Shown here piece after piece: positions 1,488-33,002 of a stretch of DNA of 37,145 bases. Origin of the DNA: Myxococcaceae bacterium. Lineage in GTDB: Bacteria > Myxococcota > Myxococcia > Myxococcales > Myxococcaceae. The stretch covers positions 1-37,145 of the forward strand of contig JAIBBQ010000043.1 of NCBI GenBank assembly GCA_019694595.1. The letters run 5' to 3'. Within the stretch, counting starts at the first letter, position 1. Every line of letters starts with the position of its first letter. A model generated the notes under the pieces. The model was not told the DNA's origin, did no database searches, and saw only the letters and a program-made list of their open reading frames with translations. The position numbers and the translations under genes are program-made.

Positions 1488-1491
<4 letters not shown>

Positions 1492-5408: not shown

Positions 5409-5421
5409 GGTCGGTCTCGCG

Positions 5422-9740: not shown

Positions 9741-9751
9741 CGAGGATCCGC

Positions 9752-9757: not shown

Positions 9758-9803
9758 GGAGGCGGGGCACCTCGTGCACAGCGCTGCGGCGCCGCCGAGC
9801 GCT

Positions 9804-14685: not shown

Positions 14686-14707
14686 CCGGCCCGTCGCTCA
14701 GGGCCGG
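14686..14707. terminator. Possible bidirectional terminator hairpin
   Basis: Between the convergent genes ending at 14677 and 14698 there is a perfect 7-base stem, CCGGCCC and GGGCCGG, with an 8-base loop. There is no T-run on either side, so it would be a non-standard terminator. The right arm lies in the last codons of the minus-strand gene. Confidence 0.35.
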
Positions 14708-17064
14708 TGGAGCACCCCGAAGGCGCCCACGGCGTAGAGGTCTCCTGCGGGCGCGAGCCACACCCCGCGGTAGTCGTAGAGCGTGAGGAACTGTTCGACC
14801 TGGGTCCACGTGGTGCCGGTGCGGCGGTACAGCTCCCCGGTCGTTCCACCCACCCACAGCTCGCTGCCTCGCGCCGCCGCGGTGTTGTACGTCTCCAAGG
14901 TGTTGCCCGGGTACTCGCGCGTCCACGCGCCGGTGGACCCGCGCTGGCTCGCGAAGCCGCCCTCGCCGGCCACGAAGAGCAGGCCGCCCGAGGTCGCCGC
15001 CGCGAAGAGCGCCTCGCCCGAGCAGCCGAGCACCTTCTGGTTGGTGAAGGCCTGGCCCTTCTTCGACACCACGGTGCAGTTGCTGCCCACCGCCACCACC
15101 TCGGTGCCCACCACCGCGAGCGCCTCGAGGTGCGCGGTGACGCCGGTCGACTTCGCCACCCAGGCGGTGCCCGGCGCGCCCACCGGTTTCTCGAGCCAGG
15201 TGCCCTGGTTGCCCACCGCGTAGACGGTGGTGCCGTCGGTCGCGAGCGCGTTGAGCCCGGCGCCGGTGACGCCCGTGCCCTCGACCGCCCACGACGGTCG
15301 CCGCGCGAGGAGGAGGCCGCTCTGGCCGGCCGCGTAGACCTCGGTGGCCGAGACCGCGAGCACCGCGTTGAGGTCGGTCGTCTGGGTGAGCGTTTCCCGT
15401 CGCCACGCCCCGTCGCGGCGGTGGAGCACGTAGCCGCCCGGGCCCACGGCGTAGACGTCGTCGGCGCTCGCCGCGCTGATGGCGCGCAGCCCCTGGAAGT
15501 CGGCCTCCGGGCCGCCCATCTGCTTCCAGTTGTTCACGCCCACCGGCTGCACGCCGCCGACGTCGTTGCGGAAGACGAGGCCGTTGTTGCCCACGGCGTA
15601 GACCGGGTCGCTCAGGGTGGTGCCCGCGGCGAACGTGGCCGTCAACTGCTGGGTGGTGAAGGGCTGCGGCCAGTAGCGCGACGGTCCGCGGTCGGCGAAC
15701 GCCCCCTGGTCGCCGCAGACGAAGGCCTGGGTCGGGTTGCCGTGCACGCCGAGGAGGTCGACGGCGCCGAGGCCGGCGTCCACCCGGGTCCAGCTCGTGC
15801 CGCTGCGCTCGAGCACGGCGCCTCCGCTCCCGACCGCGACGGCCTGGCCGGTGGCGCTGGTGAGGTCGGACCACCCGGCGTACAGCGTCTCCGAGGTGAG
15901 GCCCGCGCTCTCTCGCACGCAGGTGGTGGTGCTGGTGTCGTAGAGCGGCCCGCAGCGCAGGATGACGCCCGAGGGCCCGAGGAGGAGCCCGTCGGTGTGC
16001 GCGGCGTCGTAGGCGGAGCCGAAGAACGTGGTGTTGATGCCGGCGTCCACCACGCGCCAGCTGCCGGTGTCGCTGCGCACCGCCACCGTGCCGAACTTGC
16101 CGGCGACGATGGCGCGGGTGGCCGAGTCGCACGCCACCACGGTGAGGTCGGCCGTCGTGGGCACCGCCTCGGTCACCCAGCCGGAGAACACGCGGCGCAT
16201 CACCAGACCGCGGTCGCCCACCACCGCGAAGCGCCCGGGGGAGATGCAGCTGGCGAGCGCCCGCGCGCGCTGGTTCTTGGTGGCGTGCACCTCGTACTTC
16301 CACGCTTCGCCCTCGCGGCGCACCACGTTGCCCGCGCGGTCGAGCAGGAGCAGCTGGTCGCTCGCCCAGCCGTTGATGGCGACCAGGTTCTCGCCCAGCG
16401 GCACCGGGTATTCCCAGCAGAAGCCGCCCTCGGTGCACGCGCCCTGGGTGCAGGGTGGCCCTTCGCCCGGTGAGGCGGCGACGAAGGCGGAGCACTCGGT
16501 GGCCGGGGCCTTCACGCACTTGCGCACCCCGTACGGCGTGCAGAGGAAGGAGCCTTCGATGCACGCGCCGGGGCAGGGGTCGACGCAGCTCGCCTGGCCG
16601 CCGTCGCCCTGGCACGCCTGACCGGTGGGGCAGGCGGCGATGACGCCTTGCCACATGGCGCAGCCGCTCCCCGAGCCCTGACAGGACTCGATGCCGTTGG
16701 CGGTGGTGCAGCGCTGGGCGCCCGGGGTGCACGCGTCGGCGCAGCCGCAGTGGTCGGCGGCGCAGGTCAGGCCCGCCTGGCACGGGGAGTCGCCCGTGCA
16801 GCAGCGCTCGCCGGATCCGCCGCACGAGGCGCACTGGCCTCCGGAGCAGACGAGCGGTCCCGTGCAGGTGTCCTGGGCGCAGCAGGCCTGGCCGCTCGCG
16901 CCGCAGCGCTCGCACGTCTGGGCGCTTCCGCAGACCAGGCCGTCGGCGCACGGCGTCTGCAGGCAGCAGGGCTGGTCTTCCTTCCCGCAGCTGTTGCTGC
17001 TGATGGACTTGGTGCAGGCGGCGAGGCCCAGGACGGCGACGACGCAGAGCGAAGGCCACCGCAC
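14698..17064 (-). CDS. Predicted lipoprotein: Cys-rich N-terminal region plus beta-propeller-like body
   Basis: A 788-residue exported protein with lipobox GLAAC (Cys17). Residues ~25-220 hold about 40 Cys in repeated CC and CxxC patterns (PCC, ACC, RCC), like the disulphide-rich modules of myxobacterial surface proteins. From ~230 to the end there are many similar units containing forms such as DVYAVGPGG, TVYAVGNQG and ELWVGGTTG, each followed by a Trp-containing strand, as in photosynthesis-system-II-assembly/sialidase-like propellers. It is probably a cell-surface binding or adhesion protein. The GTG start lies eight bases after TACGCT. It seems monocistronic and ends 20 bases from the convergent gene at 14677. 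Confidence 0.8.
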   Translation of the reverse strand: MRWPSLCVVAVLGLAACTKSISSNSCGKEDQPCCLQTPCADGLVCGSAQTCERCGASGQACCAQDTCTGPLVCSGGQCASCGGSGERCCTGDSPCQAGLTCAADHCGCADACTPGAQRCTTANGIESCQGSGSGCAMWQGVIAACPTGQACQGDGGQASCVDPCPGACIEGSFLCTPYGVRKCVKAPATECSAFVAASPGEGPPCTQGACTEGGFCWEYPVPLGENLVAINGWASDQLLLLDRAGNVVRREGEAWKYEVHATKNQRARALASCISPGRFAVVGDRGLVMRRVFSGWVTEAVPTTADLTVVACDSATRAIVAGKFGTVAVRSDTGSWRVVDAGINTTFFGSAYDAAHTDGLLLGPSGVILRCGPLYDTSTTTCVRESAGLTSETLYAGWSDLTSATGQAVAVGSGGAVLERSGTSWTRVDAGLGAVDLLGVHGNPTQAFVCGDQGAFADRGPSRYWPQPFTTQQLTATFAAGTTLSDPVYAVGNNGLVFRNDVGGVQPVGVNNWKQMGGPEADFQGLRAISAASADDVYAVGPGGYVLHRRDGAWRRETLTQTTDLNAVLAVSATEVYAAGQSGLLLARRPSWAVEGTGVTGAGLNALATDGTTVYAVGNQGTWLEKPVGAPGTAWVAKSTGVTAHLEALAVVGTEVVAVGSNCTVVSKKGQAFTNQKVLGCSGEALFAAATSGGLLFVAGEGGFASQRGSTGAWTREYPGNTLETYNTAAARGSELWVGGTTGELYRRTGTTWTQVEQFLTLYDYRGVWLAPAGDLYAVGAFGVLHRP

Positions 17065-17116: not shown

Positions 17117-18364
17117 TCAGCGATCGGCCAGCGCCGCCGCCGGGCTCAGCCGGCCCGCGCGCCGGGCGGGCCACAGGCTCGCCAGCGCCGCACCGAGCGG
17201 CGTGCCGAGGAGCACCAGGGCCACCACCCACGGCTCGAGGCGCGGGCGCACCACCATGGGCACCGAGGTCCCCGCTGCGGGGATCTCGAGCCCCGCGGAT
17301 CCGGCCCAGGCGACCAGCGCGAGCGCCAGGGCAGCGCCGAGCACCGCGCCCGCGCCGCCGACCAGGAGCCCTTCGGCGACGAAGGTGCGCACCACCTCGC
17401 GGCGGCGCATGCCCATCGCGAGCCAGCTGCCGACCTCGCGCGTGCGCTCGAGCACGGACATCAACATCACGTTCACTACGCCGAGCAGGCCGACCGCGAG
17501 GAACACCAGCATCACCACCGCGCTCACCAGGTCGACCAGCGCCATCTGCTGCCGCAGGAAGGGGTAGCTCGCTTCCCAGGTGGTCACCTCGAAGTCCGGC
17601 CCCAGCGCCGCCTGCGCGGCCTGCGCCACCTGGTCGGCGCGCCCCAGGTCCGGCACCGCGAGCGCGAGCGAGGTGAGCCGTCCTTCCATGCGCAGGAGCC
17701 GCTGCGCGAGCGCGAGGGGCACCCACGCCACCCGGCGCTCTCCGGGGACCGCGGCGGGAATGCGGCCGCGCAGGGACACGTCGACGCCGTTGAGTGCGCC
17801 GTCGCGGTCGCTGGCCAGCAGGGCCAGGCGGTCGTCGGCCGCCGGGGCGCCTGCCCGCTCGAGGTCGAGCGCCAGTCCCGCGGCGAGGCGCTCGCCGAGC
17901 CAGAGCGCATCGTCGGGCCACGTCGCGCCGAGCCCGCTCCGCTCGAAGCGCAGCGGCGTCACCCGGCGCTCCTGCGCGGGGTCGAACGCCGTCACCAGCA
18001 CCGGCGTGGAGCGGCCCGGGGCGTCGCCCTGATCCGCGGTCGACACCAGTGCGCCGAACTCCAGCCGGCCGGAGACGCCGCCCACGCCGTCGAGGGCGCC
18101 GAGCGTGCGGCGGGTCGCGGGGTCGTCGCCGAAGTCCAGCGTGAGCGGCGCCGCCAGCACGGCGCGCGCGAAGCCGGCGCGGTGCACCTGGACCGCCCCG
18201 CTGCCACCGAGGACCAGGTTCTCGAGGAAGGCCTGCTGCATGCCGGTGATGAAGCCGCGCACGGAGAGCACCGTGAGCACGCCGACCGCCACCGTGATCA
18301 GCGCCAGCGCGGTGCGCACGTGGCTGCGGGTCAGGTTGCGCGCGGCGAGCTGCCAGGTGCCCAT
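17117..18364 (-). CDS. ABC transporter permease, FtsX/MacB/LolC type
   Basis: A 415-residue inner-membrane protein with the usual four-helix plan: one membrane segment at ~18-36, a large periplasmic domain to ~270, then three membrane segments near ~275-303, ~325-350 and ~370-395. The cytoplasmic turn after the second helix reads ERTREVGSWLAMGMRRREV, a standard FtsX-family coupling sequence. Relatives move lipoproteins, peptides or antibiotics, or act as mechanotransmitters. The ATPase partner is not in the window and must be encoded elsewhere. The ATG at 18364 has a GAGG-type ribosome site that falls inside a 12-base palindrome. No TAnnnT element is seen. Confidence 0.85.
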   Translation of the reverse strand: MGTWQLAARNLTRSHVRTALALITVAVGVLTVLSVRGFITGMQQAFLENLVLGGSGAVQVHRAGFARAVLAAPLTLDFGDDPATRRTLGALDGVGGVSGRLEFGALVSTADQGDAPGRSTPVLVTAFDPAQERRVTPLRFERSGLGATWPDDALWLGERLAAGLALDLERAGAPAADDRLALLASDRDGALNGVDVSLRGRIPAAVPGERRVAWVPLALAQRLLRMEGRLTSLALAVPDLGRADQVAQAAQAALGPDFEVTTWEASYPFLRQQMALVDLVSAVVMLVFLAVGLLGVVNVMLMSVLERTREVGSWLAMGMRRREVVRTFVAEGLLVGGAGAVLGAALALALVAWAGSAGLEIPAAGTSVPMVVRPRLEPWVVALVLLGTPLGAALASLWPARRAGRLSPAAALADR

Positions 18365-18505: not shown

Positions 18506-19894
18506 ATGTCCGCGCACGGCTGGTTCCCGGTCACCCTGAAGGCGCACGGCTTCTACCGGACGCTGGAGCCGTTGTTCGACCGCGGCGAGGTGGAGGCCTT
18601 CACCGACGGCGAGCCCTTCTCGCGCCAGGCGGCCGACGGCTTCGGCATGTTCTTGGGCAGCGTCGGCGGGCGGCGGCTCGGCGTGGTGGCCTGCGACTTC
18701 CGGGTGGCGGGCGCCTCGTTCGGCAAGGCGAGCTCGCGCCGGTTGCTCGCCTTCGTGCGTGCGATGGGCCAGTCGCGCACGCCCATCTTCTTCCAGCTGC
18801 ACACCATGGGGGTGCGGCTCACCGAGGGGCGCACGGTCTTCCACGACGCGTTCCAGCTGATCCCCGCGCTGTCGGGCTTCGCCGCGCGCAACCTGCTCAT
18901 CACGTCGGTGCACGGCAACTGCCTCGGCCTGGGCGCCATCCTCTACGGCCTGGGGCACGCGCAGTACGCGGTGACCGGCAAGAGCTTCAACCTGACCGGC
19001 CCCGAGGTCTTCAAGATGTTCTTCGGGGAGAAGGTCGACTACCAGGCGGCGACCGGCGTCGAGCGCGTCTCGCAGCACACCGAGCAGATCCACGAGCTGG
19101 TGCCGACCTCGGAGCACGTCTACGCGAAGGTGCGGGCGCTGCTGACGGGCGTGCCGGACGCCGAAGCGGCCCCGCTGCCTCCGAAGCTCACCGCGCTGCT
19201 CGCCACCTGCGCCGACGACGCGGTGGAGGTGCTGGCGTCGAAGAAGCCCGGCCTGTGGGCGCTGGTGGCCCGCCAGGGCACGCGGCGCTTCGGGCTCATC
19301 GCTCCCGAGCCTGGCCGCCCCAACCTGCTCACCGTCGACGGCATCGCCAAGTGCCGCGCGGCGCTCAAGCTGTTCGCCCGCATGCGGCTGCCGGTGGTGA
19401 GCCTGGTGGACACCGCCGGCACCGACCCGCGCCTGGAACAGAGCGACCGCAACGTCACCGGCGAGCTGGTGGCGCTGGGCGAGGCCATCGCGGCCCATCG
19501 CCACGGGCTCCTGGGCGTGGTGGTGGGGCGGGCCTTCGGCGGCGCGAGCCTGCTCGCCTTCCCGCGCTCCTTCGGCAGCGACCGGGTGCTGGCGCTCCAG
19601 GGCGCGCGCATCGACATCATGGATCCGAAGATCGTGGGCGCCCTGGTCTCGGGCTCGGCGCGCCTGCGCGAGCAGTGGGACGCGGTCGTCGCTTCCCAGG
19701 GAGACGGCCTGGGCGATCTCGTCGAGGCGGGCATCATCGACGGCGTCATCTCCGCGGCCGGGTTGCGCGGCGCGGTCCGGCAGTTCCTCGAAGCGCGGGC
19801 GCGTCCGCTCAGCGGTGTGGTGCCGCTGCCCGCGAGCGCCCGCTCGCTCTACGCCGACGACGACGTGGAGATCACGGCAGGAGGCAGGGCATGA
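18506..19894 (+). CDS. Acyl-CoA carboxylase carboxyltransferase-like (PccB/AccD-type) protein
   Basis: A 462-residue protein with the two crotonase-like halves of biotin-dependent carboxyltransferases. The N-half contains GNCLGLGAILYGLGHAQYAVTG and GPEVFKMFFGEKVDY. The C-half contains LPVVSLVDTAGTDPRLEQ, RAFGGASLLAF and the MDPKIVGALVSG segment. PccB proteins are usually 510-540 residues, so it is short. No biotin carboxylase or biotin carrier gene is nearby; it would have to borrow these from elsewhere, or work as a decarboxylase (malonate or glutaconyl type). As first gene of the operon it may supply an alkylmalonyl-CoA unit to the KAS III enzymes downstream. The ATG at 18506 follows the possible sigma-54 site, and its stop overlaps the desaturase start as ATGA. 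Confidence 0.75.
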   Translation: MSAHGWFPVTLKAHGFYRTLEPLFDRGEVEAFTDGEPFSRQAADGFGMFLGSVGGRRLGVVACDFRVAGASFGKASSRRLLAFVRAMGQSRTPIFFQLHTMGVRLTEGRTVFHDAFQLIPALSGFAARNLLITSVHGNCLGLGAILYGLGHAQYAVTGKSFNLTGPEVFKMFFGEKVDYQAATGVERVSQHTEQIHELVPTSEHVYAKVRALLTGVPDAEAAPLPPKLTALLATCADDAVEVLASKKPGLWALVARQGTRRFGLIAPEPGRPNLLTVDGIAKCRAALKLFARMRLPVVSLVDTAGTDPRLEQSDRNVTGELVALGEAIAAHRHGLLGVVVGRAFGGASLLAFPRSFGSDRVLALQGARIDIMDPKIVGALVSGSARLREQWDAVVASQGDGLGDLVEAGIIDGVISAAGLRGAVRQFLEARARPLSGVVPLPASARSLYADDDVEITAGGRA

Positions 19895-20808
19895 ACCCCT
19901 CGACGGTGGTGTCCATGGAGCGCATCCGCGCGCTCTCCAAGCCGAGCGCCCCGCGCGCCATCTTCTGGGCTCTCGCGGCCTGGGTGACCATCGTCGCCCT
20001 GGCGGTGCTCGACTCCCGGTTCGGCAACCCGCTCACCACCGTGCTGGTGGTGCTGCTCATCGCCAACCAGCAGCACGCGCTGCTCATCCAGATGCACGAC
20101 GCGTCGCACTGGCGGCTCTCGCAGCACCGCTGGCTCAACGACCTGGTCGGCGAGCTGCTCTGCGCGTGGCCGATGTTCTTCCGCATGGCGGCGTACCGGG
20201 AGAACCACCGCATGCACCACCTGCACGCCAACACCGCGCTCGACCCCGACTTCCGCCCGGGCCGCTTCCCCAAGTCGAAGGAGCAGGCGCTCAAGATGCT
20301 GGTGCTCGACGTGCTGGCGCTCAACACCTTCGAGCAGCTGGGAGAGCTCAAGCGGCTCAAGAAGCCCACCAGCGCGAAGCTCAAGCTCGCGCGGCTCGCC
20401 TTCTACGGCACCGCGGCGGCGCTCATCACCTGGGCAGGCCTCTGGCCGCAGGTGCTGCTGTACTGGGTGGTGCCGCTCTTCACCTGGCTCAAGGTCATCC
20501 TGCGGCTGCGCGCCATCGCCGACCACGCGGGCGTGGAGCAGCAGGCCCGGCCCTACGACACCCGCACCGTGGTGCCCACGCTGGTCGACCGGCTCTTCGT
20601 GGCGCCGCGCAACTGCTCGTACCACTTCGGTCACCACGCCTACGAGAGCGTGCCCTGGTTCAACCTGAAGGCGCTGCACGTGGAACTCATGCAGCACCCG
20701 GAGCTGCGCGCGCGGGTGCGGGTGACCAGGGGCTTCCACCGCCTCCTCGACGAGCTGCCCTCGGCCAGCCTGGGCGCGCCCGCGCCGGCGCCGACGAGCG
20801 CGGGGTAG
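19891..20808 (+). CDS. Membrane fatty-acid desaturase
   Basis: A 305-residue membrane di-iron enzyme. The three histidine boxes are HDASH (69-73), HRMHH (106-110) and HFGHH (245-249), with an extra His at 212 in DHAG. Hydrophobic segments lie near 25-62, 85-100 and 170-205, the usual pattern for acyl-lipid or acyl-CoA desaturases and related hydroxylases. It overlaps the carboxyltransferase stop as ATGA and ends three bases before the next gene. It probably adds a double bond or hydroxyl to one acyl substrate of this pathway. Carotenoid ketolases share the fold, but the operon context favours a fatty acid. Confidence 0.88.
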   Translation: MNPSTVVSMERIRALSKPSAPRAIFWALAAWVTIVALAVLDSRFGNPLTTVLVVLLIANQQHALLIQMHDASHWRLSQHRWLNDLVGELLCAWPMFFRMAAYRENHRMHHLHANTALDPDFRPGRFPKSKEQALKMLVLDVLALNTFEQLGELKRLKKPTSAKLKLARLAFYGTAAALITWAGLWPQVLLYWVVPLFTWLKVILRLRAIADHAGVEQQARPYDTRTVVPTLVDRLFVAPRNCSYHFGHHAYESVPWFNLKALHVELMQHPELRARVRVTRGFHRLLDELPSASLGAPAPAPTSAG

Positions 20809-20811
20809 CGC

Positions 20812-21825
20812 GTGTTCCGCAGCGCGCGGTACCAGGGCGGCTTCTCCATCGACGCCGTCGCGTCGTGCGACTTCGAGCGGCTGGTGCCGGTGACCAACGC
20901 CGAGGTGCTGGAGCGCGGCGGCCGCAAGGCGGATCCGCGGCTCCTCGGCTTCCTCTGCCAGGAAGTGGGCATCGAGGGCCGCTTCTTCTGTCCCCCCGAG
21001 CGCAACGCCTTCGACCTCGCGAAGGAAGCCATCGAGCGGCTCCTCGCGCAGGACCCGAGCCTGCGCACCGAGGCCGAGTTCCTCATCTACTGCGGCATCT
21101 CCAACCCGATGCCCACGGTGTGCCACGCGGCGCTGCTGGCCCACGAGCTCGAGTTCACCAGCGCGAGCTGCTGGGACCTCAAGTCCGGGTGTTCGACCGC
21201 GGTGCTGGGGCTGGTGCAGGCGCTGGAGTGGTTCGAGCGCGGCGCCCGGCGCGGCGTGCTGGTGGCGAGCGAGACGTTCTCCAAGTTCACCAACCCCGAG
21301 GCGCTGGAGCTGGCGGCGACCAGCGGCGACGGAGCGTGCGCCATCGCGCTCTCGGCGACGGACGCCTGGCGGGCGCGCGGCGTGGTGCACGGCACCAACC
21401 CGACGTACTTCAAGAGCGCGTACGTGCCGGGGAAGTACCCGGTCGACGTCGAGCGCTGGCGCCAGTCGGACTACTGGTTCTCCTTCGACGCCAAGCCGCA
21501 GGCCATCACCGCCATCGGCGAGGCGTGGGTGAAGTCGCTCGCCGACGTGCTCCAGGTCTCCGAGCTGCCGGGCGAGCGGGTGACGCACTACGTGAGCCAC
21601 CAGATCGACGCGAAGAAGAACCGCCAGTTCGCGAAGAGCGGCCAGGTGCCCGACGCGGCCATCTACGAGAACTTCCGGCGCTTCGGGAACATGGGCTGCC
21701 CCACGGTGCTGCTCAACTACCAGTCGCGACCGCTCCCGACGTACGCCAAGGGCGACGTGCTGCTCTTCCACGCGGTGGGGGGCGGCATCTCGCACGCGGC
21801 GCTGTGTCTCGAGCGCATGCGGTGA
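20812..21825 (+). CDS. KAS III-like condensing enzyme (first copy)
   Basis: A 337-residue thiolase-fold enzyme. The expected triad is present: Cys127 in SGCSTA, His263 in VSHQID, Asn293 in FGNMGCPT. The Cys surroundings differ from housekeeping FabH (AACAG) and the Asn loop reads NMGCPT instead of NTSAAS, so this is a specialised member. The GTG start is three bases after the desaturase stop. Its own stop overlaps the ligase gene as GTGA. It probably joins two acyl thioesters, perhaps as a partner of the second copy at 23102-24082, as in LstA/LstB and NltA/NltB. The pairing is inference; the fold and triad are visible. Confidence 0.85.
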   Translation: MFRSARYQGGFSIDAVASCDFERLVPVTNAEVLERGGRKADPRLLGFLCQEVGIEGRFFCPPERNAFDLAKEAIERLLAQDPSLRTEAEFLIYCGISNPMPTVCHAALLAHELEFTSASCWDLKSGCSTAVLGLVQALEWFERGARRGVLVASETFSKFTNPEALELAATSGDGACAIALSATDAWRARGVVHGTNPTYFKSAYVPGKYPVDVERWRQSDYWFSFDAKPQAITAIGEAWVKSLADVLQVSELPGERVTHYVSHQIDAKKNRQFAKSGQVPDAAIYENFRRFGNMGCPTVLLNYQSRPLPTYAKGDVLLFHAVGGGISHAALCLERMR

Positions 21826-23105
21826 GCCTCGCCGAGCAGTTCCTCGGCCTGCGCCTGTCCCGGGCGGGGCAACCCATCACCCCGGTCGAGAAGGCCCAGG
21901 CGCTCGAGGCGGCCCGGGCGGCGCTGAGCGCCTTCGCGCCGGGTGCGGCGGTCACCGTGGCGGCCACCGAGCCGCTCGGCTTCGCGGTGAGCTTCTTCGC
22001 CGCGCTCGACCGCGGGCTGGCGCCGGTGACGGCGGCGCGGGGCCAGGCGCTCCTCTCGCCGTCGTCGCTCGCGCTCTCCGCCCCCGGGAGCGCCTACGCC
22101 TGCCTGACCTCGGGCAGCACCGGCGAGCCGAAGGCGTGCGTGCTCACGCTCGACGGGGCGATGGCCAACGCGCGCGCTCACGCCCGCTCGCTGCGCCTCG
22201 GCGCGGAGCACACCGTGCTGCAGACGCTGTCGCTCGCCCATTCGTTCGGGGTGGTCGCCGCGCTGCTGACGCCGCTGGTGACCGGGTGCGCGCTCGACTT
22301 CAACGACGCCCTGCTGTCGAGGCGCGCACTCGGGCGACGCACGCTCTCGCGCGTGGTGCTGAGCCTCAGTCCCGCGCAGGCGCGGTGGATGCTGCGCGAG
22401 GGCGGCGCGCCGATCGAGGGGGTCGAGGTGCTGAGCGTGGGCGCAGGCCTCCTCACGCCCGAGGAGTGGACGGCGCTCCAGGCGGTCTTCCCGGGCGCGG
22501 CGTGCTTCGCCACCTACGGGCTCACCGAGGCCGGGCCCCGGGTCAGCACCGGCCGCGTCTCGCCCGGCGCACCGGAAGGGGCGGGCTTCATCGGCGTTCC
22601 ACTCGAGGGGGTGGACGTGGCGGTGCTGGGCGACGCTCGCGAGGTGGCCGCCGCCGGCACCGGGCGACTGCTGGTGCGCAGCCCGTCGCTGGCCCACGGG
22701 CTCGAGCCGGCGCAGCTCCACCAGGGCTGGCTGCTCACCCGCGATCGGGTGGAGCTGAAGGCGGATGGGCGGCTCTACTTCCTCGGCCGCGAGAGCGACG
22801 TCATCAAGGTCGGGGGGCTCACCTTCTTCTCGAGCCAGCTCGAGGCTGCGGCGCGGAAGGTGGAAGGCGTGGTGGACTGCGCGGTGGTGATTCGCTCGCA
22901 CGTGCTGGCCAACGACCGCTGGACGCTCCTCTTCGCCGGGTCCGCCTCGGAGGACCAGGTGTGGGCCGGGCTGCGGAGCCAGCTCGAACCCGCCGCGCTG
23001 CCAGTGCAGGTGCGCTGCGTGCCGCGCGTGGAGCGCTCGGCGCTGGGCAAGGTGGAGCGCGCGTGGGCCGAGGTGGCCGCCGGCGCGGAAGGAACGACGC
23101 CGTGA
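21822..23105 (+). CDS. Short AMP-forming ligase of the acyl-CoA synthetase superfamily
   Basis: A 427-residue adenylate-forming enzyme with the core motifs: P-loop-like LTSGSTGEPKA (95-105), YGLTEAG (232-238), TRD (307-308 within), the hinge region GRESDVIKVGG (322-332), and the catalytic Lys410 in SALGKVERA. Acyl-CoA synthetases and OleC are typically 500-560 residues. Here the missing length is at the N-terminus. It may activate a free fatty acid, load the acyl carrier protein, or act as an OleC/LstC-type enzyme that closes a beta-hydroxy acid to a beta-lactone. It overlaps both neighbours as GTGA, so it is made together with both KAS III enzymes. Confidence 0.85.
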   Translation: MSLAEQFLGLRLSRAGQPITPVEKAQALEAARAALSAFAPGAAVTVAATEPLGFAVSFFAALDRGLAPVTAARGQALLSPSSLALSAPGSAYACLTSGSTGEPKACVLTLDGAMANARAHARSLRLGAEHTVLQTLSLAHSFGVVAALLTPLVTGCALDFNDALLSRRALGRRTLSRVVLSLSPAQARWMLREGGAPIEGVEVLSVGAGLLTPEEWTALQAVFPGAACFATYGLTEAGPRVSTGRVSPGAPEGAGFIGVPLEGVDVAVLGDAREVAAAGTGRLLVRSPSLAHGLEPAQLHQGWLLTRDRVELKADGRLYFLGRESDVIKVGGLTFFSSQLEAAARKVEGVVDCAVVIRSHVLANDRWTLLFAGSASEDQVWAGLRSQLEPAALPVQVRCVPRVERSALGKVERAWAEVAAGAEGTTP

Positions 23106-24082
23106 GGGTGGTGCTGAAGCGCGTGGCCTTCGCGGTGCCCGACCGGGTGGTGACCAACGACGAGCTCATCGCGGCGCGCGGGCTCAAGATGAAGGCGTCG
23201 TGGATTGCCAAGCACCTCGGCGCCGTCGAGCGCCGCTGGGCGGCCGAAGGCGAGGCGGCGAGCGACCTCGGGGTGCGCGCGGTGCGGGCGCTCGGGCTGG
23301 AGCGCTTCCAGGGCGCGCTCTTCGTCTCCACCGTCTCGCCCGACCACCTGACGCCGTCGACCGCGTCGATTCTCAAGCGAAAGCTGGGGCTGACCGACGC
23401 CTTCCCGGCGCTCGACGTGAGCGCAGCGTGCGCGGGGGCGCTGTTCGCGCTCGAGCAGGCGCGCTTCCGCCTCGAGTGCACCGGGGAAGCCGAGGCGCTG
23501 GTGGTGGCCACCGAGGTGCGCAGCCGCTTCGTCAACCCGGACGACCGCCGCACCGTCTTCCTCTTCGGCGACGGGGCGTGTGCCTTCCACCTCACGCGCG
23601 AGGAGCGCAGCGACGTGGGCCTGGAGTGGACGGTGACGCGCACCGTGGCGAGCGCGTCGGTCGACATCCTGGTGCCCGGCGGCGGCTCGGCGGCGCCGCT
23701 CGACGCGCAGGCGCTCGCGCGCGGCGACCAGTTCATCCGCATGCTCGACGGCCCGAACATCGTGGAGCTCACGCTCACCACGCTGGTCGACGCGGTGAAG
23801 GGCGAGCTCTCGGCGCGGGCGATTCCGGTGGAGCGCATCGACCACCTCTTCCTGCACCAGGGCAACGCCGCCATCTGCGAAGCGGTCGCCGGGCGGCTCG
23901 GCATCCCGCCCGAGCGGACCTGGTCCAACTTCGGCCGCTTCGGCAACACCAGCAGCGCGAGCGTGGGCCTGTGTCTGGCGGAGGCTGCGGCTGCGGGGAA
24001 GCTGTCGCGCGGCCAGCGCGTGCTCCTGGTGGCGATGGGCGCGGGCAACCACCTGGGCATGGTGTGCCTCACGTGGGCGTGA
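23102..24082 (+). CDS. KAS III-like condensing enzyme (second copy)
   Basis: A 326-residue enzyme closer to FabH than the first copy: Cys110 in SAACAGA, His252 in LHQGNAA, Asn282 in FGNTSSAS, plus the family segments TPSTASILKRKLG and GDGACAFHL. It shares fold but little close sequence with the first copy, so the two are not a recent duplication. The GTG start overlaps the ligase stop, and the gene's stop overlaps the SDR start as GTGA. It may condense with malonyl or alkylmalonyl units, or pair with the first copy as a heterodimer. Confidence 0.87.
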   Translation: MRVVLKRVAFAVPDRVVTNDELIAARGLKMKASWIAKHLGAVERRWAAEGEAASDLGVRAVRALGLERFQGALFVSTVSPDHLTPSTASILKRKLGLTDAFPALDVSAACAGALFALEQARFRLECTGEAEALVVATEVRSRFVNPDDRRTVFLFGDGACAFHLTREERSDVGLEWTVTRTVASASVDILVPGGGSAAPLDAQALARGDQFIRMLDGPNIVELTLTTLVDAVKGELSARAIPVERIDHLFLHQGNAAICEAVAGRLGIPPERTWSNFGRFGNTSSASVGLCLAEAAAAGKLSRGQRVLLVAMGAGNHLGMVCLTWA

Positions 24083-25035
24083 CGCTCGTCACCGGAGCGA
24101 CGGGCCTCCTGGGCGCCCACCTGGTGCGCGAAGGCCTCGCGCGGGGGCAGGCGCTGCGGGTGGTGGCGCGCACGATTCCCCGGCGCAGCTTCCTGTGGTC
24201 GGTGAAGGAGCAGGTCGACGTGCGGGCGAGCGATCTCTGCGCCGAGGTGCCGGCGTCGCTCCTGGACGGCGTGGACACGGTCATTCACGCGGCGGCGTCG
24301 TCGAGCCCGGGCGGCGAGGACGCCGAAGCGGCCGCTGCGCGCAACGTGCAGATGGTGGAGCAGCTGGTCCCCGCAGCGGCGCGCGCAGGTGTGCGGCGCT
24401 GGGTGCAGATCTCCAGCGTGGCCACGGTGAGCGGCGGCGCCCAGCCGGTGGACGAGCGCTCCACCACGCCGCGCGACACGCCGTACGCGAAGGCCAAGCG
24501 CGCGGCGGACCTGCTCGTCGCGGCCCGCGCGGGGGTGATGGCGGTCACCACGCTCCTGCCGACCTTCATGCTGGGCCCTTTCGACGCCCGGCCGTCGTCG
24601 GGCGCCGTCTTCCTCGCGCTCCGGGCGGGCGTGCTGCGCCACTTCGTCGACGTGCCGAAGAACCTGGTGGCCGCGGCCGACGTCGCGCGGGGGGTGTGGG
24701 CGGCGCTGGAGGCAGGCGCCACCGGGCCGTACCTCCTCGGCGGGGCCGACGTGCCGCTGCGGGAGTTCTTCGCCGAGGCGCTGCGACTGCTCGGGTTGCC
24801 CGCCGGCACGCTCGAGCAGCTCTCCGCGCTGCCGGCCGAGGGGGCGGGCGAAGGCAGCGACGCGCGCTCCTTCGCCATCGTGCGGGAGCTGTGCACGCCG
24901 AGCGAGGTGCGTTCCACCAGGGCGGAGCAGGCCTTCGGCTACCAGCCCACGCGGGACCCGTTCGTCGCGCTGCGCGAGCATGTCGAGTATCTTTCGAAGG
25001 CCCGACTGCTGCGGCTGGCCACGCCGTCAGCCTGA
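24079..25035 (+). CDS. Extended SDR, NAD-dependent epimerase/3-beta-HSD type
   Basis: A 318-residue Rossmann enzyme. TGATGLLG at 5-12 binds the nucleotide. Ser112/113, Tyr136 and Lys140 form the catalytic set (YAKAK). The C-terminal substrate domain follows from ~160. OleD, LstD and NltD, which reduce the beta-keto acid made by head-to-head condensation, belong to this same superfamily, so the order condensing enzyme, ligase, condensing enzyme, extended SDR is notable. The GTG at 24079 gives a GTGA overlap; a GTG two codons earlier is possible. Confidence 0.85.
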   Translation: MTLVTGATGLLGAHLVREGLARGQALRVVARTIPRRSFLWSVKEQVDVRASDLCAEVPASLLDGVDTVIHAAASSSPGGEDAEAAAARNVQMVEQLVPAAARAGVRRWVQISSVATVSGGAQPVDERSTTPRDTPYAKAKRAADLLVAARAGVMAVTTLLPTFMLGPFDARPSSGAVFLALRAGVLRHFVDVPKNLVAAADVARGVWAALEAGATGPYLLGGADVPLREFFAEALRLLGLPAGTLEQLSALPAEGAGEGSDARSFAIVRELCTPSEVRSTRAEQAFGYQPTRDPFVALREHVEYLSKARLLRLATPSA

Positions 25036-25051
25036 AGCGGGCCACGACGCC

Positions 25052-25816
25052 ATGGGCTACCGGCTGCTGATCACCGGAGGAACCTCGCAGATCGCGATGG
25101 CGCTCGCCGCGCGCCAGGCGGCGCTCGGGCGGGACGTCACCGTCACCGCGTCGAAGGAGGAGGGCGTCGAGCCGCTGCGCCGCCGGTACGCGGAAGCCAG
25201 GATTCCCGCCGCGGTGGTGGCGTTCGACCTCGACCCCGCGGTGCCGTACGGCCGGGCGCTCCAGGAGCTCCTCGGGTCCGGCGTCGACGCGCTGGTGCTC
25301 AACGCCGCGCCGCCGGTGAAGCGCTTCCGCCGGGTGCACCAGTTCCCCGCGAAGGAGATCGACGAGGCGCTGTCGCTCAACGTGGTGGGCAACTTCCGGC
25401 TGCTGCAGGCGGTGCTGCCGGGCATGGCGCAGCGCCGCTTCGGCCGGCTGGTCTTCGTCTCCTCGGCGATGGTGCAGCAAGCGGCGAGCCGGCACGCCCT
25501 CTACGCGCTCACCAAGAGCGCGGTGGAGTCGCTCTTCACCAGCGTGGCCATCGAGTACGCGGCGAAGAACGTGTTCGCCAACGTGGTGCGGCCGGGCATC
25601 ATCCGCACCGAGCGCACCCGCCGCTTCTGGAAGAACCCGGAGTACCTCGAGCGGGCGCAGCGCCTCATCCCCGCGGGCGCGCTGGGCCGGCCCGAACAGG
25701 TCGCGGAGGCGTTCGACCCGCTGCTCTCGGAGACCTCGTACCTCAACGGCTCGGTGCTGACCGTGGGCGGAGGGTTGCCCATCCTCAACCTGGCCGGCGT
25801 CGGAGGAGAGCCGTGA
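25052..25816 (+). CDS. Classical SDR oxidoreductase (3-oxoacyl reductase-like)
   Basis: A 254-residue short-chain dehydrogenase. The cofactor loop is GGTSQIA at 9-15 (usual TGxxxGxG, with the last Gly changed to Ala). NAA at 84-86 is present and the tetrad is Asn110, Ser138, Tyr151, Lys155. The C-terminus GSVLTVGGG is typical of FabG-like enzymes. It begins 16 bases after the previous gene and overlaps the P450 start as GTGA. It probably reduces a keto group or oxidises an alcohol on the operon's lipid product. Confidence 0.87.
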   Translation: MGYRLLITGGTSQIAMALAARQAALGRDVTVTASKEEGVEPLRRRYAEARIPAAVVAFDLDPAVPYGRALQELLGSGVDALVLNAAPPVKRFRRVHQFPAKEIDEALSLNVVGNFRLLQAVLPGMAQRRFGRLVFVSSAMVQQAASRHALYALTKSAVESLFTSVAIEYAAKNVFANVVRPGIIRTERTRRFWKNPEYLERAQRLIPAGALGRPEQVAEAFDPLLSETSYLNGSVLTVGGGLPILNLAGVGGEP

Positions 25817-27126
25817 GTGGCCGGCTGCCCCCGATGCTCCCGGGGCACTGGCTGCTCGGGCATCTCCCGGAGCGTCGGCGCGATGCGCTGGGGCTCTTCA
25901 TGCGCGGCGCTGCGCTCGACAGCCCGGTGGTGCGCTACCGCCTGGGCACCTTCACCACCTACCTGCTCAACGAGCCCGCGCTCATCAAGCAGGTGATGCA
26001 GGACAAGCTCGACCAGTACGGCAAGGGGCCCATCGTCGCCAAGATGGAGCCGCTCATCGGGCTGGGGCTCATCACCATCCAGGGTGCGGCCTGGCCGCGG
26101 CAGCGCAAGCTGGTGCAGCCGGTGTTTCACCACCAGCGGCTCGAGCGCCTGCACGCGCTGATGGACGAGCTCATCTCCGCGCGGCTGGACACCTGGCGCG
26201 CCCGCGGCGGGGAGCGCTTCGACCTCGTGCACGAGATGGTGCAGCTGACGATGGACATCATCTGCGCGTCGCTCTTCGGCCGCGGCGCGCTGCCGCGCCT
26301 CGCGGAGCTGTCGGGGGCGGCCACCGGCTTCGTCGACGAGGTGTCGGCGGAGATCCTCAAGGTCTTCACGCCCCTGGGGCTCTTGCTCAACCGGCGACCC
26401 CGGGCCGGGCCGGCAGGGCGGGCGCTGCGCGCGCTCATCGCCAGCCTCATCGAGCAGCGCCGCGCCGGCGAGGCCGACGGCGACGACATGCTCGGCGCGC
26501 TGATGGCCTCGAAGGACGACGCCGGCCAAGGGCTCTCACCCGAGGCGCTGCTCGACGAGGTGATGACGCTCTTCGTGGCCGGCCACGAGACCACCGCGGT
26601 GGCGCTGAGCTGGGCCTTCTGGCTGCTGAGCGTGCACCCCCACGCGCAGGAAGCGATTCGCGGCGACCCTCCCGCTCCCGCGGGCCGCGAGGCCACCTCC
26701 TGGGCGCGCATGGTCGCCGCCGAGGCGCTGCGGCTCTACCCGCCGGTGTGGAGCATTCCCCGGCGCGCGCTGGCCGACGACGAGATGGCCGGCTTCGACG
26801 TGCCCAAGGGCACCATGGTGATGGTCGCGCCGTACACCATGCAGCGGCACCCGAGGTTCTGGGAACGCCCCGAGGCCTTCGAGCCCGAGCGCTTCGCCCC
26901 GGGGAAGAGCCACGACCGCTTCGTCTACTTCCCCTTCGGCGTGGGGCCGCGCCGCTGCGCCGGCATGGGCTTCGCGCAGGTGGAGATGGAGTTCATCCTC
27001 GACCGGGTGTGCCGCGCCTTCTCCCTCGCGCGCGAGCCGCAGGCGCAGGTGAGCCCCCTGCCGCTGCTGACGCTCAAGCCTGACGGGCCGATGTGGATGC
27101 GGGCGCACCCACTGGGGCGCTCGTGA
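25813..27126 (+). CDS. Cytochrome P450
   Basis: A 437-residue soluble P450. The I-helix oxygen motif AGHETT is at 256-261, the K-helix ExxR as EALR at 304-307, and the haem-binding loop FPFGVGPRRCAG with Cys382 as ligand. The C-helix WPRQRKL is also typical. There is no membrane anchor and no fused reductase, so it needs external ferredoxin. The sequence style resembles fatty-acid-hydroxylating bacterial P450s. As last gene of the operon it probably hydroxylates or desaturates the assembled lipid. Its last 53 bases overlap the end of the opposite-strand gene at 27074-28129. Confidence 0.93.
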   Translation: MSGRLPPMLPGHWLLGHLPERRRDALGLFMRGAALDSPVVRYRLGTFTTYLLNEPALIKQVMQDKLDQYGKGPIVAKMEPLIGLGLITIQGAAWPRQRKLVQPVFHHQRLERLHALMDELISARLDTWRARGGERFDLVHEMVQLTMDIICASLFGRGALPRLAELSGAATGFVDEVSAEILKVFTPLGLLLNRRPRAGPAGRALRALIASLIEQRRAGEADGDDMLGALMASKDDAGQGLSPEALLDEVMTLFVAGHETTAVALSWAFWLLSVHPHAQEAIRGDPPAPAGREATSWARMVAAEALRLYPPVWSIPRRALADDEMAGFDVPKGTMVMVAPYTMQRHPRFWERPEAFEPERFAPGKSHDRFVYFPFGVGPRRCAGMGFAQVEMEFILDRVCRAFSLAREPQAQVSPLPLLTLKPDGPMWMRAHPLGRS

Positions 27127-28129
27127 GGACCTCGGACCAGGGCGTGAAGCCCAGCGTGGCCACCTCGGCGGGGCGCTCGCCCGGCAGCAGCACCTGAACG
27201 AAGCGCTCGAGCAGCTGCCGCGGCGCCTCGTCGCCTTCCGCGAGAGACGGGTGCAGCTGCAGCCCGATGCCCAGCCGCCCGTCGACGCAGATGCAGCCGC
27301 AGGCGATGGGCACCTTTCGCGACGCCGGCGGACAGCCGAGCCAGCCGCCGCGCACCTGCGGCGGGAGCCCGAGCTGCGCGGGGCGCCAGGTCCCCAGGTT
27401 GGAGAACGAGCCGGTCCACCCGAAGGGGAGCGCGAGGAGCCCGCGGGTGCGCGCGCGGTACTTCTCGAGGCCGATGACCTTGCCGAGGTTCATCGCCATC
27501 CACGCGCCGAAGTGCGCCCCGTCGCGCAGCCGCCCGCGCAGCCCGTCGGCGATGGCCCGCGGCGGCGAGCCGTCGGCGATGGACACGGTGAGGAAGCTGG
27601 AGTGGTTGGCGCGCGGGTTCTCCAGCCGCACCGCGCCGCGGAGGTTGACCGGCACCAGCCACGCCGGAATCTGGTTGCTCGAGAGGCCGAGCGAGGTGAC
27701 GGCCTGGTTCAGCCCCCAGAGCGAGAAGAGGTTGGAGTTCACCTTCGCCGCCCGCGCGTGGCGCTGGAAGCGCTTGGTGGCGTCGGCAGACACCAGCGCC
27801 CAGGCGACTCCCGCGGGCGGCCCCGACCGGTCGAGGCGCGGCCGCTCCGACGGGGCGAGCGGCGGGCGGGTGCGCAGGTAGCGCACGAAGGCGGCCGCGC
27901 GCACCGGCCACAGCGGCAGCTTCCCCGGGTAGGTCGGCAAGGGCTGCGGGGCGGCGCCGGCCTGCTCCAGCACCTCCTGCAGCGCGCCGAGGCCGTCGAC
28001 GCGCACGTGCGAGAAGCGGCTCCAGCGGGGCTGCGTCGCGCCGTCCGGGAGCTGCCCGCAGAGGATGTCGACGTTCTCGCCGAGCTCCTCGAAGACGCGG
28101 AACCACTCCCCAATCCAGTCGGTCTGCAT
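27074..28129 (-). CDS. Condensation-fold (WS/DGAT or alcohol-acyltransferase-like) protein, short N-terminus
   Basis: A 351-residue protein that looks like the later two-thirds of a condensation-type acyltransferase. A candidate HxxxDG active site is His41-Val-Arg-Val-Asp45-Gly46 (in FSHVRVDG). It is followed by a membrane-leaning linker, a helix like DATKRFQRHARAAKVNSN, the sheet ENPRANHSSFLTVSI, and a GSFSNLG segment as in the C-half of this fold. Normal members have the HxxxDG near residue 130, so ~90 residues are missing. A start at 28204 would add only 25. The ATG at 28129 is chosen because TACAGT lies 11 bases before it and the longer start would sit on the divergent gene's promoter. 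It could esterify or amidate a lipid from the neighbouring operon. Function is inferred. Confidence 0.55.
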   Translation of the reverse strand: MQTDWIGEWFRVFEELGENVDILCGQLPDGATQPRWSRFSHVRVDGLGALQEVLEQAGAAPQPLPTYPGKLPLWPVRAAAFVRYLRTRPPLAPSERPRLDRSGPPAGVAWALVSADATKRFQRHARAAKVNSNLFSLWGLNQAVTSLGLSSNQIPAWLVPVNLRGAVRLENPRANHSSFLTVSIADGSPPRAIADGLRGRLRDGAHFGAWMAMNLGKVIGLEKYRARTRGLLALPFGWTGSFSNLGTWRPAQLGLPPQVRGGWLGCPPASRKVPIACGCICVDGRLGIGLQLHPSLAEGDEAPRQLLERFVQVLLPGERPAEVATLGFTPWSEVLTSAPVGAPASTSARQA

Positions 28130-28140
28130 GGCCGGGCTCG

Positions 28141-28146
28141 ACTGTA
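28141..28146 (-). promoter_or_regulatory. Leaderless-type -10 element (TACAGT) for the gene starting at 28129
   Basis: The minus strand reads TACAGT, 11 bases, then ATG: the same hexamer and spacing as before the gene starting at 9740. Confidence 0.45.
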
Positions 28147-28198
28147 GCTGCGCTCCGCGCCGGGCGAGCGCTTCGTCGACCACCCGGAGGTCGTCGAC

Positions 28199-28204
28199 TA
28201 CCAT
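28199..28204 (+). promoter_or_regulatory. Leaderless-type -10 element (TACCAT) for the gene starting at 28212
   Basis: TACCAT is followed by seven bases and then the GTG start of the fusion protein. With 28141-28146 on the other strand it forms a compact divergent promoter region. Confidence 0.5.
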
Positions 28205-28211
28205 CGCGGCG

Positions 28212-30206
28212 GTGGACGCGGCCGCGCCTCCTCCTTCCTCGCCGCGCGCCCGGACCTGGGCCGCGTTGCTCGTGGCCTTCGTGCTGGTGGCGGTGGTGCT
28301 GTGGCGCATCGACGCGCGCGCCTTCGCCGACGCGCTGCGCGGCGTCGACGCCCTGGCCTTCTTCGGCTTCGCGCTCGTCTTCTCGCTCGCGCTGCTGACT
28401 GCGGACGCCTTCGCCACTGCGCCGCTCTACCGGAAGGTGGCGCCCGGGCTGCGCGTGGGCGACGTGTGGGTGGCGCGTGCGCGCAGCTACCCCGCGTCGG
28501 TGCTGAACCACCACCTGGGCCAGGCGCACCTCACCTGGCAGCTCGCGCGCCGCAGCGGCGTGCCCCTGCCGTCGGTCGCCGGGGCGACGCTGCTCGCGTA
28601 CACCTCGTGGAGCGGGTGGCTCGCGGCGGCGTGGGTGGCCTCCTCGGTGATGCGCGGCGGCGAGTGGTGGTGGTGGGCTGGCCCGGTGGCGGTGGTGGGC
28701 GGGTACCTGCTGCTCATCGCGCTCGCGCCCCGGCCGCTGACGACGGTGGCGTTCCTCGCGCCGCTCTTCGAGGCGGGCGTGCTGGGCCACGTGGTGGCCT
28801 GGGTGCAGCGCTTCCCCCACTTCGCGGTGCTCTTCCTGGGGACCTGGCTCTCGCCGCGCTTCTTCGGAGTGACGGTGCCCTTCGCCGAGGCGCTCACCTC
28901 GGTGCCGCTGCTCATGGTGGTGGCGACGCTCCCGGTGGCGCCCCAGGGGCTGGGCACCCGCGACGCACTCGCCGCGGCGCTGCTGCGTCAATTCGCGGCG
29001 GGCTCGAGCGCCGAGGAACAGCTCGCCCACGTGGCGGCGGCGACGCTCGGCTGGGCGGTGGTGCTGACGGTGCTGCAGCTGGCCCTGGGGCTCCTCGCGC
29101 TGCGGCTCGGCGCAGCGCCCGGCGACGCGCGCGCGGGGGAGCGGCGGCCGGTGGTGCTCTACGCGCTGGCGAGCAACGGCATGGCCCACGCGACCCGGGC
29201 GCTGCCCATGCTGGAGCGGCTGTCGCGCAGCTACGAGGTGCACGTCTTCTGCGGCGGGCCGGCGCGGCGGTGGCTCGCGGCGCGCTTCGAGCGGGTGCAC
29301 TGGATCCGCCGCTTCATGGCCTTCTACGTGGGCGACCGGGTGAGCATCCCCCTGGTGATGGCGGTCGCGGTGCTGACGCTGCCCTTGTCCGCCTGGTGCA
29401 TGCTCACCATCGGCTGGGTGATGGTGACGCGCCGGCCGCTCGCCCTGGTGACCGACTTCGAGGCGCTGTCCACGTGGACGGCGCTGCTGCTGCGGCCCTT
29501 CGTCAAGGTGCGGGTGGTGGTCTTCGACAACTTCTGCGCGGCGCGGGTGGCCGAGCCACCGTTCGACCCCACACCCGAGGAGCGGACGCTGCTGCGCAAG
29601 TGGCAGGGCACGCTGAAGGCGGTGGCGCCCACCGCCGACGTGTTCCTGGTGCAGTCGGTGGTGCACCCCACGCTCACCGACTCCAGGGCCCGCTACGTGC
29701 GGCCGCCGATTCGCGACCGCTTCCTCGGCTACGCGGGCCCGCGGAGCGACGACGGGCCGGTGGTGGTGTGCCTCGGCGGCACGCGCGGGTTCGACTGGCT
29801 GCCCGAGGTGCTGGAGCGCTCGGGTCTGCGCTGCCACGTCTACGGCTTCGACCAGGCACGCGAGGTGGGGGCGGTGTCCTTCCGCCGCTTCGAGGACGAC
29901 GCCTACCTGGAGTCGCTCGCGCACGCGCCCTTCTCGGTGGTGCGGGGCATCTCCTCGGCGTACGACGCGCTGTCGCTGGGCAAGCCGATTCTCTTCTGCC
30001 CGGCGGAAGGGCAGTTCGAGCACACCTTCAACGCGCGGCTCTTCGAGCGGCTGGGCGTGGGCCGCATGGCGGCGCCGCTGACGCCGGAGGCGCTGCGCGA
30101 CTTCCTCGCGGGGCTGGAGCCGTACCGCCAGCGGCTCGCCGGGCTGTCGATGTTCGACAACGAGAGCGTCTACGCCGAGCTCGAGCGCGCGGTGCGCGGG
30201 GCATGA
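28212..30206 (+). CDS. Fusion of a flippase-like membrane domain (LPG synthase TM/UPF0104 type) and a glycosyltransferase
   Basis: A 664-residue protein. Residues 1-300 hold many membrane segments, with the conserved marks of the lysylphosphatidylglycerol-synthase membrane family: ARARSYPASVLNHHLGQA in the middle and PVAPQGLGTRDALAAALL near 241-257. Residues ~313-664 are a GT-B glycosyltransferase of the MurG/MJ1255-like kind. It begins VVLYALASNGMAHATRALPML, and the donor site is VRGISSAYDALSLGKPILFCP with GQFEHTFNA. A hydrophobic stretch near 360-385 may keep the enzyme at the membrane. The membrane half may move or anchor the lipid that the other half glycosylates. The GTG at 28212 is chosen for the TACCAT element seven bases before it. 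It overlaps the acyltransferase-3 gene as ATGA. Confidence 0.8.
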   Translation: MDAAAPPPSSPRARTWAALLVAFVLVAVVLWRIDARAFADALRGVDALAFFGFALVFSLALLTADAFATAPLYRKVAPGLRVGDVWVARARSYPASVLNHHLGQAHLTWQLARRSGVPLPSVAGATLLAYTSWSGWLAAAWVASSVMRGGEWWWWAGPVAVVGGYLLLIALAPRPLTTVAFLAPLFEAGVLGHVVAWVQRFPHFAVLFLGTWLSPRFFGVTVPFAEALTSVPLLMVVATLPVAPQGLGTRDALAAALLRQFAAGSSAEEQLAHVAAATLGWAVVLTVLQLALGLLALRLGAAPGDARAGERRPVVLYALASNGMAHATRALPMLERLSRSYEVHVFCGGPARRWLAARFERVHWIRRFMAFYVGDRVSIPLVMAVAVLTLPLSAWCMLTIGWVMVTRRPLALVTDFEALSTWTALLLRPFVKVRVVVFDNFCAARVAEPPFDPTPEERTLLRKWQGTLKAVAPTADVFLVQSVVHPTLTDSRARYVRPPIRDRFLGYAGPRSDDGPVVVCLGGTRGFDWLPEVLERSGLRCHVYGFDQAREVGAVSFRRFEDDAYLESLAHAPFSVVRGISSAYDALSLGKPILFCPAEGQFEHTFNARLFERLGVGRMAAPLTPEALRDFLAGLEPYRQRLAGLSMFDNESVYAELERAVRGA

Positions 30207-32934: not shown

Positions 32935-33002
32935 GCGCCCCGGGGTGACGGTCTGCCGGGGGGCCCTTGACTCGGCGGCGCATCTGTCGCACATGCGCCC
33001 AC

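Follow-up and report, generated by a model that had tools for sequence, protein, structure and literature searches.

A gene cluster with a pair of KAS III enzymes in a Myxococcaceae bacterium and its relatives in Bdellovibrionota

The eight-gene operon and its two condensing enzymes

Here we describe an operon with two β-ketoacyl-acyl carrier protein synthase III (KAS III) enzymes on a contig of a Myxococcaceae bacterium and, from its relatives, define a recurring family of biosynthetic clusters with three subtypes across Myxococcota and Bdellovibrionota. The whole stretch of DNA analysed (the window) is one entire contig of 37,145 bases from a 7.28 Mb genome. Eight consecutive open reading frames (ORFs) occupy its plus strand at 18506-27126, each with a named Pfam family and, where measured, with a coding-type GC content at third codon positions (0.94-0.97). 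Five of the seven junctions overlap by 4 bases; the others are a 3-base gap (20808/20812) and a 16-base gap (25035/25052). A reading made earlier from the letters alone (the sequence-only reading) had proposed a coupled eight-gene operon here, with six of seven junctions overlapping or within 3 bases, and both statements are correct, the motifs of the enzymes being intact. Scans for promoters and terminators gave no signal beyond chance.

The operon opens with CT (18506-19894), a divergent carboxyltransferase with the fold of the β-subunit of biotin-dependent acyl-CoA carboxylases (PF01039, 84.5 bits). Its AlphaFold model (pLDDT 82.8) contains both crotonase-like halves, and Foldseek matches it to transcarboxylase 12S (E 4e-28), AccD6 (E 9e-28) and also long-chain acyl-CoA carboxylase. 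No gene for biotin carboxylase or biotin carboxyl carrier protein (BCCP) was seen in the window; for use as a carboxylase, CT would have to borrow both from the acetyl-CoA carboxylase of the cell. The next gene, DES (19891-20808), encodes a membrane fatty-acid desaturase/hydroxylase with three His boxes (PF00487, FA_desaturase, 114.5 bits).

Two KAS III enzymes follow on either side of a ligase. KAS1 (20812-21825) is a divergent member of a paired subfamily with a GCS motif, and KAS2 (23102-24082) is its FabH-like partner. They are 24% identical and, as had been read from the letters, each keeps the complete Cys-His-Asn triad in alignment. The KAS1 model (pLDDT 83.5, with residues 201-227 unreliable) has the KAS III fold and its own GC[SA] motif. 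Its structural matches include PqsD and PqsBC, and FabH and BioZ types stand above OleA in the match lists; the fold is common to them, so this ranking was not used as proof. At position 87 of FabH, which sets the chain-length limit in the E. coli enzyme, KAS2 carries Thr, or Ser in subtype C, in 17 of 17 loci, whereas the E. coli residue is Phe. Mycobacterial FabH, which has Thr87, accepts long primers.

LIG (21822-23105) is a short AMP-forming acid ligase, predicted to act on ACP or CoA (PF00501). The sequence-only reading had called it short, and at 427 residues it is, nonetheless keeping the P-loop, the YGLTE motif and the C-terminal Lys. At 137 bits, below the cut-off of 370, AmcH (annotated as a 2-oxoglutaryl-ACP ligase) is its best NCBIfam match, and LIG also resembles the acid-activating ligases MenE and malonyl-CoA synthetase. 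Downstream of KAS2 lie eSDR (24079-25035), an extended short-chain dehydrogenase/reductase (SDR) placed by family profile scores in the HpnA/SdmB/OleD superfamily, and SDR (25052-25816), a classical β-ketoacyl-reductase-like enzyme (PF13561, 115 bits); both have YxxxK. The best profile match of eSDR is HpnA (114 bits), to which it is closer than to OleD. The operon ends with P450 (25813-27126), a cytochrome P450 (PF00067, 236 bits) that keeps ExxR and the heme Cys motif FGVGPRRCAG. No OleB-like gene is present among the eight, in agreement with the earlier reading.

Relatives of the cluster and placement of its enzymes

Relatives were collected by a scan with a KAS1 alignment over 84,980 species genomes and by a separate search of 369 Bdellovibrionota genomes. 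A Bdellovibrio metagenome-assembled genome (locus L067) carries CT-KAS1-ACP-LIG-KAS2-eSDR-SDR in the same order as the window, with 33-48% identity. The search of 369 genomes added G275, G273, G240, G258 and G270, in which KAS1 shares 54-61% identity with the L067 protein; KAS1-ACP-LIG-KAS2-eSDR is kept in four of the five. This core is found in five Bdellovibrionota loci (L067, L103, L104, L105 and L107), in one of which, L105, an extra SDR separates KAS2 and eSDR. Conservation of gene order in other genomes had been put forward as a check on the operon, and it is indeed seen in Bdellovibrionota. CT is nearby in four of the five core loci, beside KAS1 in L067 and L103, paired with DES in L103 and L104 and separate in L105, and an MMPL exporter gene stands beside the core in L104, L105 and L107.

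Window KAS1 is 48-52% identical to Bdellovibrionota KAS1. The CT relatives in these clusters are 32-40% identical, the DES orthologues beside CT in L103 and L104 44-46%, and the eSDR relatives, which come directly or one gene after KAS2 in all five core loci, 30-36%. The window SDR is 43-47% identical to the SDRs of subtype B and 34-38% to those of subtype A. No close CT relative was found at E 1e-20 in 147 genomes of the class, and in the plasmid collection nothing beyond generic KAS III of about 25% identity turned up. As side observations, a YceI-family gene adjoins DES in L104 (3280-4281, by Pfam) and L103 (12996-14003, by sequence likeness), and a lone subtype A KAS1, 50% identical, lies near ExbB/TolR-like genes in L106 of genome G258 (9440-10603), where neither ligase nor KAS2 is present across 19.5 kb.

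All KAS1 proteins form one clade in the maximum-likelihood tree (100/98), separate from OleA and FabH. The trees of KAS1 and KAS2 divide into the same three subtypes, all of which have ACPs. Subtype A consists of the window and the Bdellovibrionota loci. Subtype B, with ACP-SDR-KAS2 accompanied by LIG and KAS1, occurs in Myxococcus/Pyxidicoccus, cultured species included, and in Oligoflexia, whose members also carry LolA, FtsX, ABC, MFS, hexapeptide and GH3 genes. Subtype C, from other Myxococcota (L040, L072, L075 and partial loci), adds a fatty acyl-AMP ligase (FAAL), a canonical CT, a second ACP and an acyl-CoA dehydrogenase. The genome of the window has, in addition, a subtype C cluster, split across the short contigs C88 (L055) and C70 (L056). 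Across the sister clusters, exporter genes beside the core are of MMPL, LolA, FtsX, ABC and MFS types. The window belongs to this paired-KASIII family by its GC[SA]-type KAS1 with KAS2, LIG, ACP and SDR, the candidate ACP being extra-operonic.

The distances within KAS1 and KAS2 correlate over 17 loci (Mantel r 0.958, with 0 of 5000 permutations as high), a value that is inflated by the subtype structure. The earlier claim of one coupled pathway of lipid-type enzymes, in which two KAS III act together, is supported. With both active sites kept, the pair offers a tractable case for the role of two full condensing sites together.

Kinship with the head-to-head (OleA-type) condensing systems, which had also been proposed, is not supported. 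The yardsticks were ole clusters from the host's own class, located via OleD-like genes (loci L085-L087 and L089), and the subfamily models NF006720 (PRK09258, OleA; cut-off 285), NF042422 (OleD; 580) and NF006829 (FabH; 249). Against NF006720 KAS1 scores 49.8 and KAS2 100.5 bits, versus 430.5 and 451.7 for two OleA of the class. Work on OleA names a Glu-Pro pair as essential, with the Glu at position 117, and reports it in all OleA except two (PMC7064751). This Glu117-Pro is present in four of four OleA of the class; in KAS2 the position is Thr, and in KAS1 different alignments place Pro, Met or Thr there, never Glu. In the tree an OleA clade (100/100) excludes both enzymes. LIG matches OleC at E 1.6e-8 at best, in comparison with 8e-72 for the L067 ligase and 1e-20 to 1e-28 for other sister ligases, and eSDR matches OleD at E 2e-5 and scores 42.3 bits with NF042422, under a cut-off that the OleD-like proteins of the class do not reach either (best 430). 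An Ole-type identity of the operon was rejected on the residue at position 117, the profile scores, the tree and the OleC-distant ligase. In the Ole and Lst condensations that have been characterised the substrates are acyl-CoAs, whereas the sister clusters contain ACPs, which makes ole-type kinship doubtful. The β-lactone or olefin product once suggested for the operon is unsupported, given these ACPs and the missing OleA and OleC traits; the statement that the operon is no plain copy of ole, lst or nlt stands.

Grouping of the KAS III enzymes with housekeeping FabH, named beforehand as a result that would speak against the proposal, did not occur in either tree or scores. With NF006829 KAS2 reaches 217.1 and KAS1 87.7 bits, versus 418.6 for the housekeeping FabH of the same genome on contig C56. 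A duplication of FabH was rejected, both proteins being below the subfamily cut-off and outside the FabH clade. DarB/StlD, DpgA and HMG-CoA synthase identities were rejected as well on weak scores far under the cut-offs (35.8 against 550 for the DarB type).

The flanks of the operon

The best candidate for the carrier protein of the pathway is a small ACP with an LGLDSV site on the minus strand at 31360-31623 (PF00550, 20.5 bits, cut-off 20.8). It is 34-39% identical to the ACPs of L067, L103 and L104 and has in common with them LDE..I..W.T..D, a signature of subtype A; by sequence it is the best candidate for the closest counterpart of the Bdellovibrionota cluster ACPs. In the Bdellovibrionota core loci the ACP gene lies between KAS1 and LIG, while in the window these two genes overlap instead. 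Since the best ACP counterpart sits here, the pathway probably extends past 27126: the genes of the operon proposed at 18506-27126 stand, and its end as the end of the pathway does not.

Between the operon and the ACP gene, both on the plus strand, lie genes for a membrane-anchored glycosyltransferase (Glyco_trans_1_3, 28266-30206) and a membrane O-acyltransferase (Acyl_transf_3, 30203-31363), and a membrane oxygenase of the FA_hydroxylase family (PF04116, 97.5 bits) is encoded beyond it, also on the plus strand (31713-32582). Position alone would link these three to the pathway. The ORF at 27074-28417 on the minus strand, which lacks any family match, was left out of the pathway parts.

A GH3 acyl-acid amido-synthetase-like enzyme (33907-35571, minus strand; PF03321, 168.6 bits) is divergent from an MFS exporter gene (35606-36718, plus strand; PF07690). 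Most genomes searched have zero or one copy of GH3, yet nine paired-KASIII loci have it: the window, L040, L072, L075, L076, L078, L079, L084 and L107. The divergent GH3/MFS pair is repeated in L040, L072 and L078, and in the L040 cluster the relatives of the window P450, GH3 and MFS are 41, 58 and 49% identical. On the other side of the operon, divergent from CT, an FtsX/MacB-type permease (17117-18364, minus strand; PF02687) is tentatively part of an exporter and is 23-27% identical to the FtsX proteins near KAS1 in L076, L079 and L084.

Further genes of the window are noted in passing. A DUF6748 protein is encoded between the FA hydroxylase and GH3 (32967-33893, plus strand). Adjoining the FtsX permease, a 788-residue protein with a lipoprotein-like start has no Pfam family (14698-17064, minus strand). 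A 1074-residue protein (6516-9740, minus strand) bears the fvmX7 “FtsH ternary system” domain (PF20005), and argF, argH, argR, an ArgJ fusion and argC form a run of arginine genes on one strand (535-6438, minus), the 671-residue ArgJ being fused to an amino-acid-kinase domain in an ArgJ-ArgB-like manner.

Proposed pathway, alternatives and known systems

With moderate confidence, we suggest that the window holds one copy of an ACP-dependent lipid pathway that is conserved, centres on a KAS III pair inherited together and is apparently uncharacterised. We rate the cluster as a probable discrete-enzyme, carrier-protein lipid assembly system with a KAS III pair. Every enzyme comes from a known superfamily; their combination and its conservation appear to be undescribed in the open literature searched, a limited search that gave no match to a published myxobacterial or Bdellovibrionota cluster with two KAS III.

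The fold of CT, the likeness of LIG to acid-activating ligases, Thr or Ser at position 87 of KAS2 and the KAS1 fold suggest that an ACP-bound acyl chain is extended, reduced, oxidised and exported. From the gene content, gene order, motifs, conservation and co-divergence we infer the following steps, with their order, substrates and product. LIG would adenylate a carboxylic acid and then load it onto the small ACP. CT, which models as an acyl-CoA carboxylase β-subunit and for this reason may supply a carboxylated extender, would carboxylate an acyl thioester, drawing on the biotin carboxylase and BCCP that the cell already has. KAS2, with its small residue (Thr) at the chain-length-limiting position, would condense an acyl primer with this extender, and eSDR and SDR would reduce the condensation product. 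KAS1 might perform a second condensation or an acyl transfer, either as the heterodimer partner of KAS2 or in sequence with it. DES and P450, probably with the FA hydroxylase, would oxidise the chain, and GH3 may link the acid to an amine. Export towards the envelope might proceed through MFS/FtsX-type transporters, or through MMPL or LolA/FtsX/ABC systems in the sister clusters. An exported, oxidised lipid is the best reading of the product. It may be an envelope lipid, as predators occur in both phyla and genes for outer-membrane lipid transport are found in the sister clusters.

Several points weigh against this proposal. Subtype A KAS1 is thin within the host phylum, occurring in only one of 195 Myxococcota genomes, that of the window. 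The ACP gene is outside the operon, 4 kb off and on the opposite strand, with a Pfam score slightly under threshold, and subtype structure accounts for part of the co-divergence of the KAS pair. Since no biotin carboxylase gene is linked to it, CT might instead be a decarboxylase. The roles given to KAS1 and GH3 are guesses.

Other assignments of the same enzymes were weighed. The KAS pair might carry out a decarboxylative Claisen condensation between a long acyl chain carboxylated by CT and a partner loaded on ACP by LIG, or by the FAAL of subtype C; SDR would then give an α-alkyl β-hydroxy acid for MMPL-type export, in a discrete-enzyme counterpart of FadD32-AccD4-Pks13-CmrA-MmpL3. The CT model, matching mycobacterial AccD6 and long-chain acyl-CoA carboxylase, the company of FAAL, CT and ACP in subtype C, the MMPL genes adjoining three cores and the small residue at position 87 of KAS2 agree with this. 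However, other acyl-CoA carboxylases match CT just as well, no mycolyltransferase homologue was seen (none was searched for), and we know of no KAS III enzyme used in mycolate-type condensation. We consider such a route unlikely, and equally so the broader idea of a Gram-negative mycolate counterpart, in which a KAS III heterodimer would make an α-branched β-hydroxy lipid, placed in the outer envelope by MMPL/Lol systems in Myxococcota and Bdellovibrionota. The resemblance of LIG to AmcH, MenE and malonyl-CoA synthetase and the presence of PqsD and PqsBC among the KAS1 structural matches would fit a route of the PqsD/PqsBC or pyrone type, where KAS2 turns an acid loaded by LIG into a β-keto intermediate and KAS1 contributes a second acyl group before cyclisation to a small heterocycle. 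Both KAS enzymes have a full triad, though, no amine-donor or aromatic-acid genes were seen, and the membrane desaturase, FA hydroxylase and lipid exporters indicate a lipid, which leaves this route rather improbable.

It is very improbable that the pair joins two acyl-CoAs head to head without decarboxylation, as in Ole/Lst/Nlt systems, with eSDR reducing a 2-alkyl-3-oxo acid and LIG closing a β-lactone. The operon does include an extended SDR along with an AMP ligase, the identity between the two KAS III is like that of LstA and LstB (PMC12141560), and P450 without OleB recurs in one oleACD cluster (PMC7064751), but the lack of Glu117, the low OleA scores and separate clade, the distance of LIG from OleC and of eSDR from OleD, and the ACPs of the sister clusters all oppose it. 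Least credible to us is that the KAS III enzymes are extra FabH copies that feed uncommon primers into standard fatty acid synthesis: KAS2 is FabH-like, but a canonical FabH is encoded on contig C56, KAS2 falls under the FabH cut-off and KAS1 far under it, and the gene order is kept together with the ligase, ACP, SDRs and exporters.

Last, we compare the paired-KASIII cluster with known systems. LstA and LstB are about 23% identical, with the triad reported in LstA and a catalytic Glu in LstB, and their reaction is non-decarboxylative (PMC12141560), at odds with the carboxylated acyl-CoA that the earlier reading ascribed to lipstatin. Like them, the window enzymes are two KAS III of some 23-24% mutual identity that are candidates for a heterodimer. 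Unlike in the published LstAB residue pattern, the triad is complete in KAS1 and KAS2 alike, and the OleA column holds no Glu in either; LstAB would be the nearest idea for the pair, but its residue pattern seems not to fit. With the Ole pathway (OleABCD, which makes long-chain olefins) and the oleACD β-lactone clusters, one of which has a P450 as the window operon does (PMC7064751), the window shares a KAS III-type condensing enzyme, an AMP ligase and an extended SDR in a single operon; it differs in lacking OleA Glu117 and OleB, in its separate KAS clade and non-OleC ligase, in having two KAS III with intact triads, and in the ACPs of its sister clusters. FabH has the same fold and Cys-His-Asn triad as KAS1 and KAS2, but both are below its cut-off and the housekeeping FabH is elsewhere in the genome.

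Aryl polyene, flexirubin and dialkylresorcinol clusters have genes for discrete ACP, acyl-ACP ligase, SDR, acyltransferase and lipid exporters. The paired-KASIII cluster resembles them in these discrete components; unlike in those clusters, no KAS II-type ketosynthase/chain length factor, dehydratase or ammonia lyase was seen. With mycolic acid condensation (AccD4, FadD32, Pks13, CmrA and MmpL3) it has in common a carboxyltransferase, an acyl-activating ligase, an ACP, a reductase and, in the sister clusters, MMPL. However, unlike in the mycolic acid system, a discrete KAS III pair takes the place of the multidomain Pks13, and the hosts are Gram-negative.

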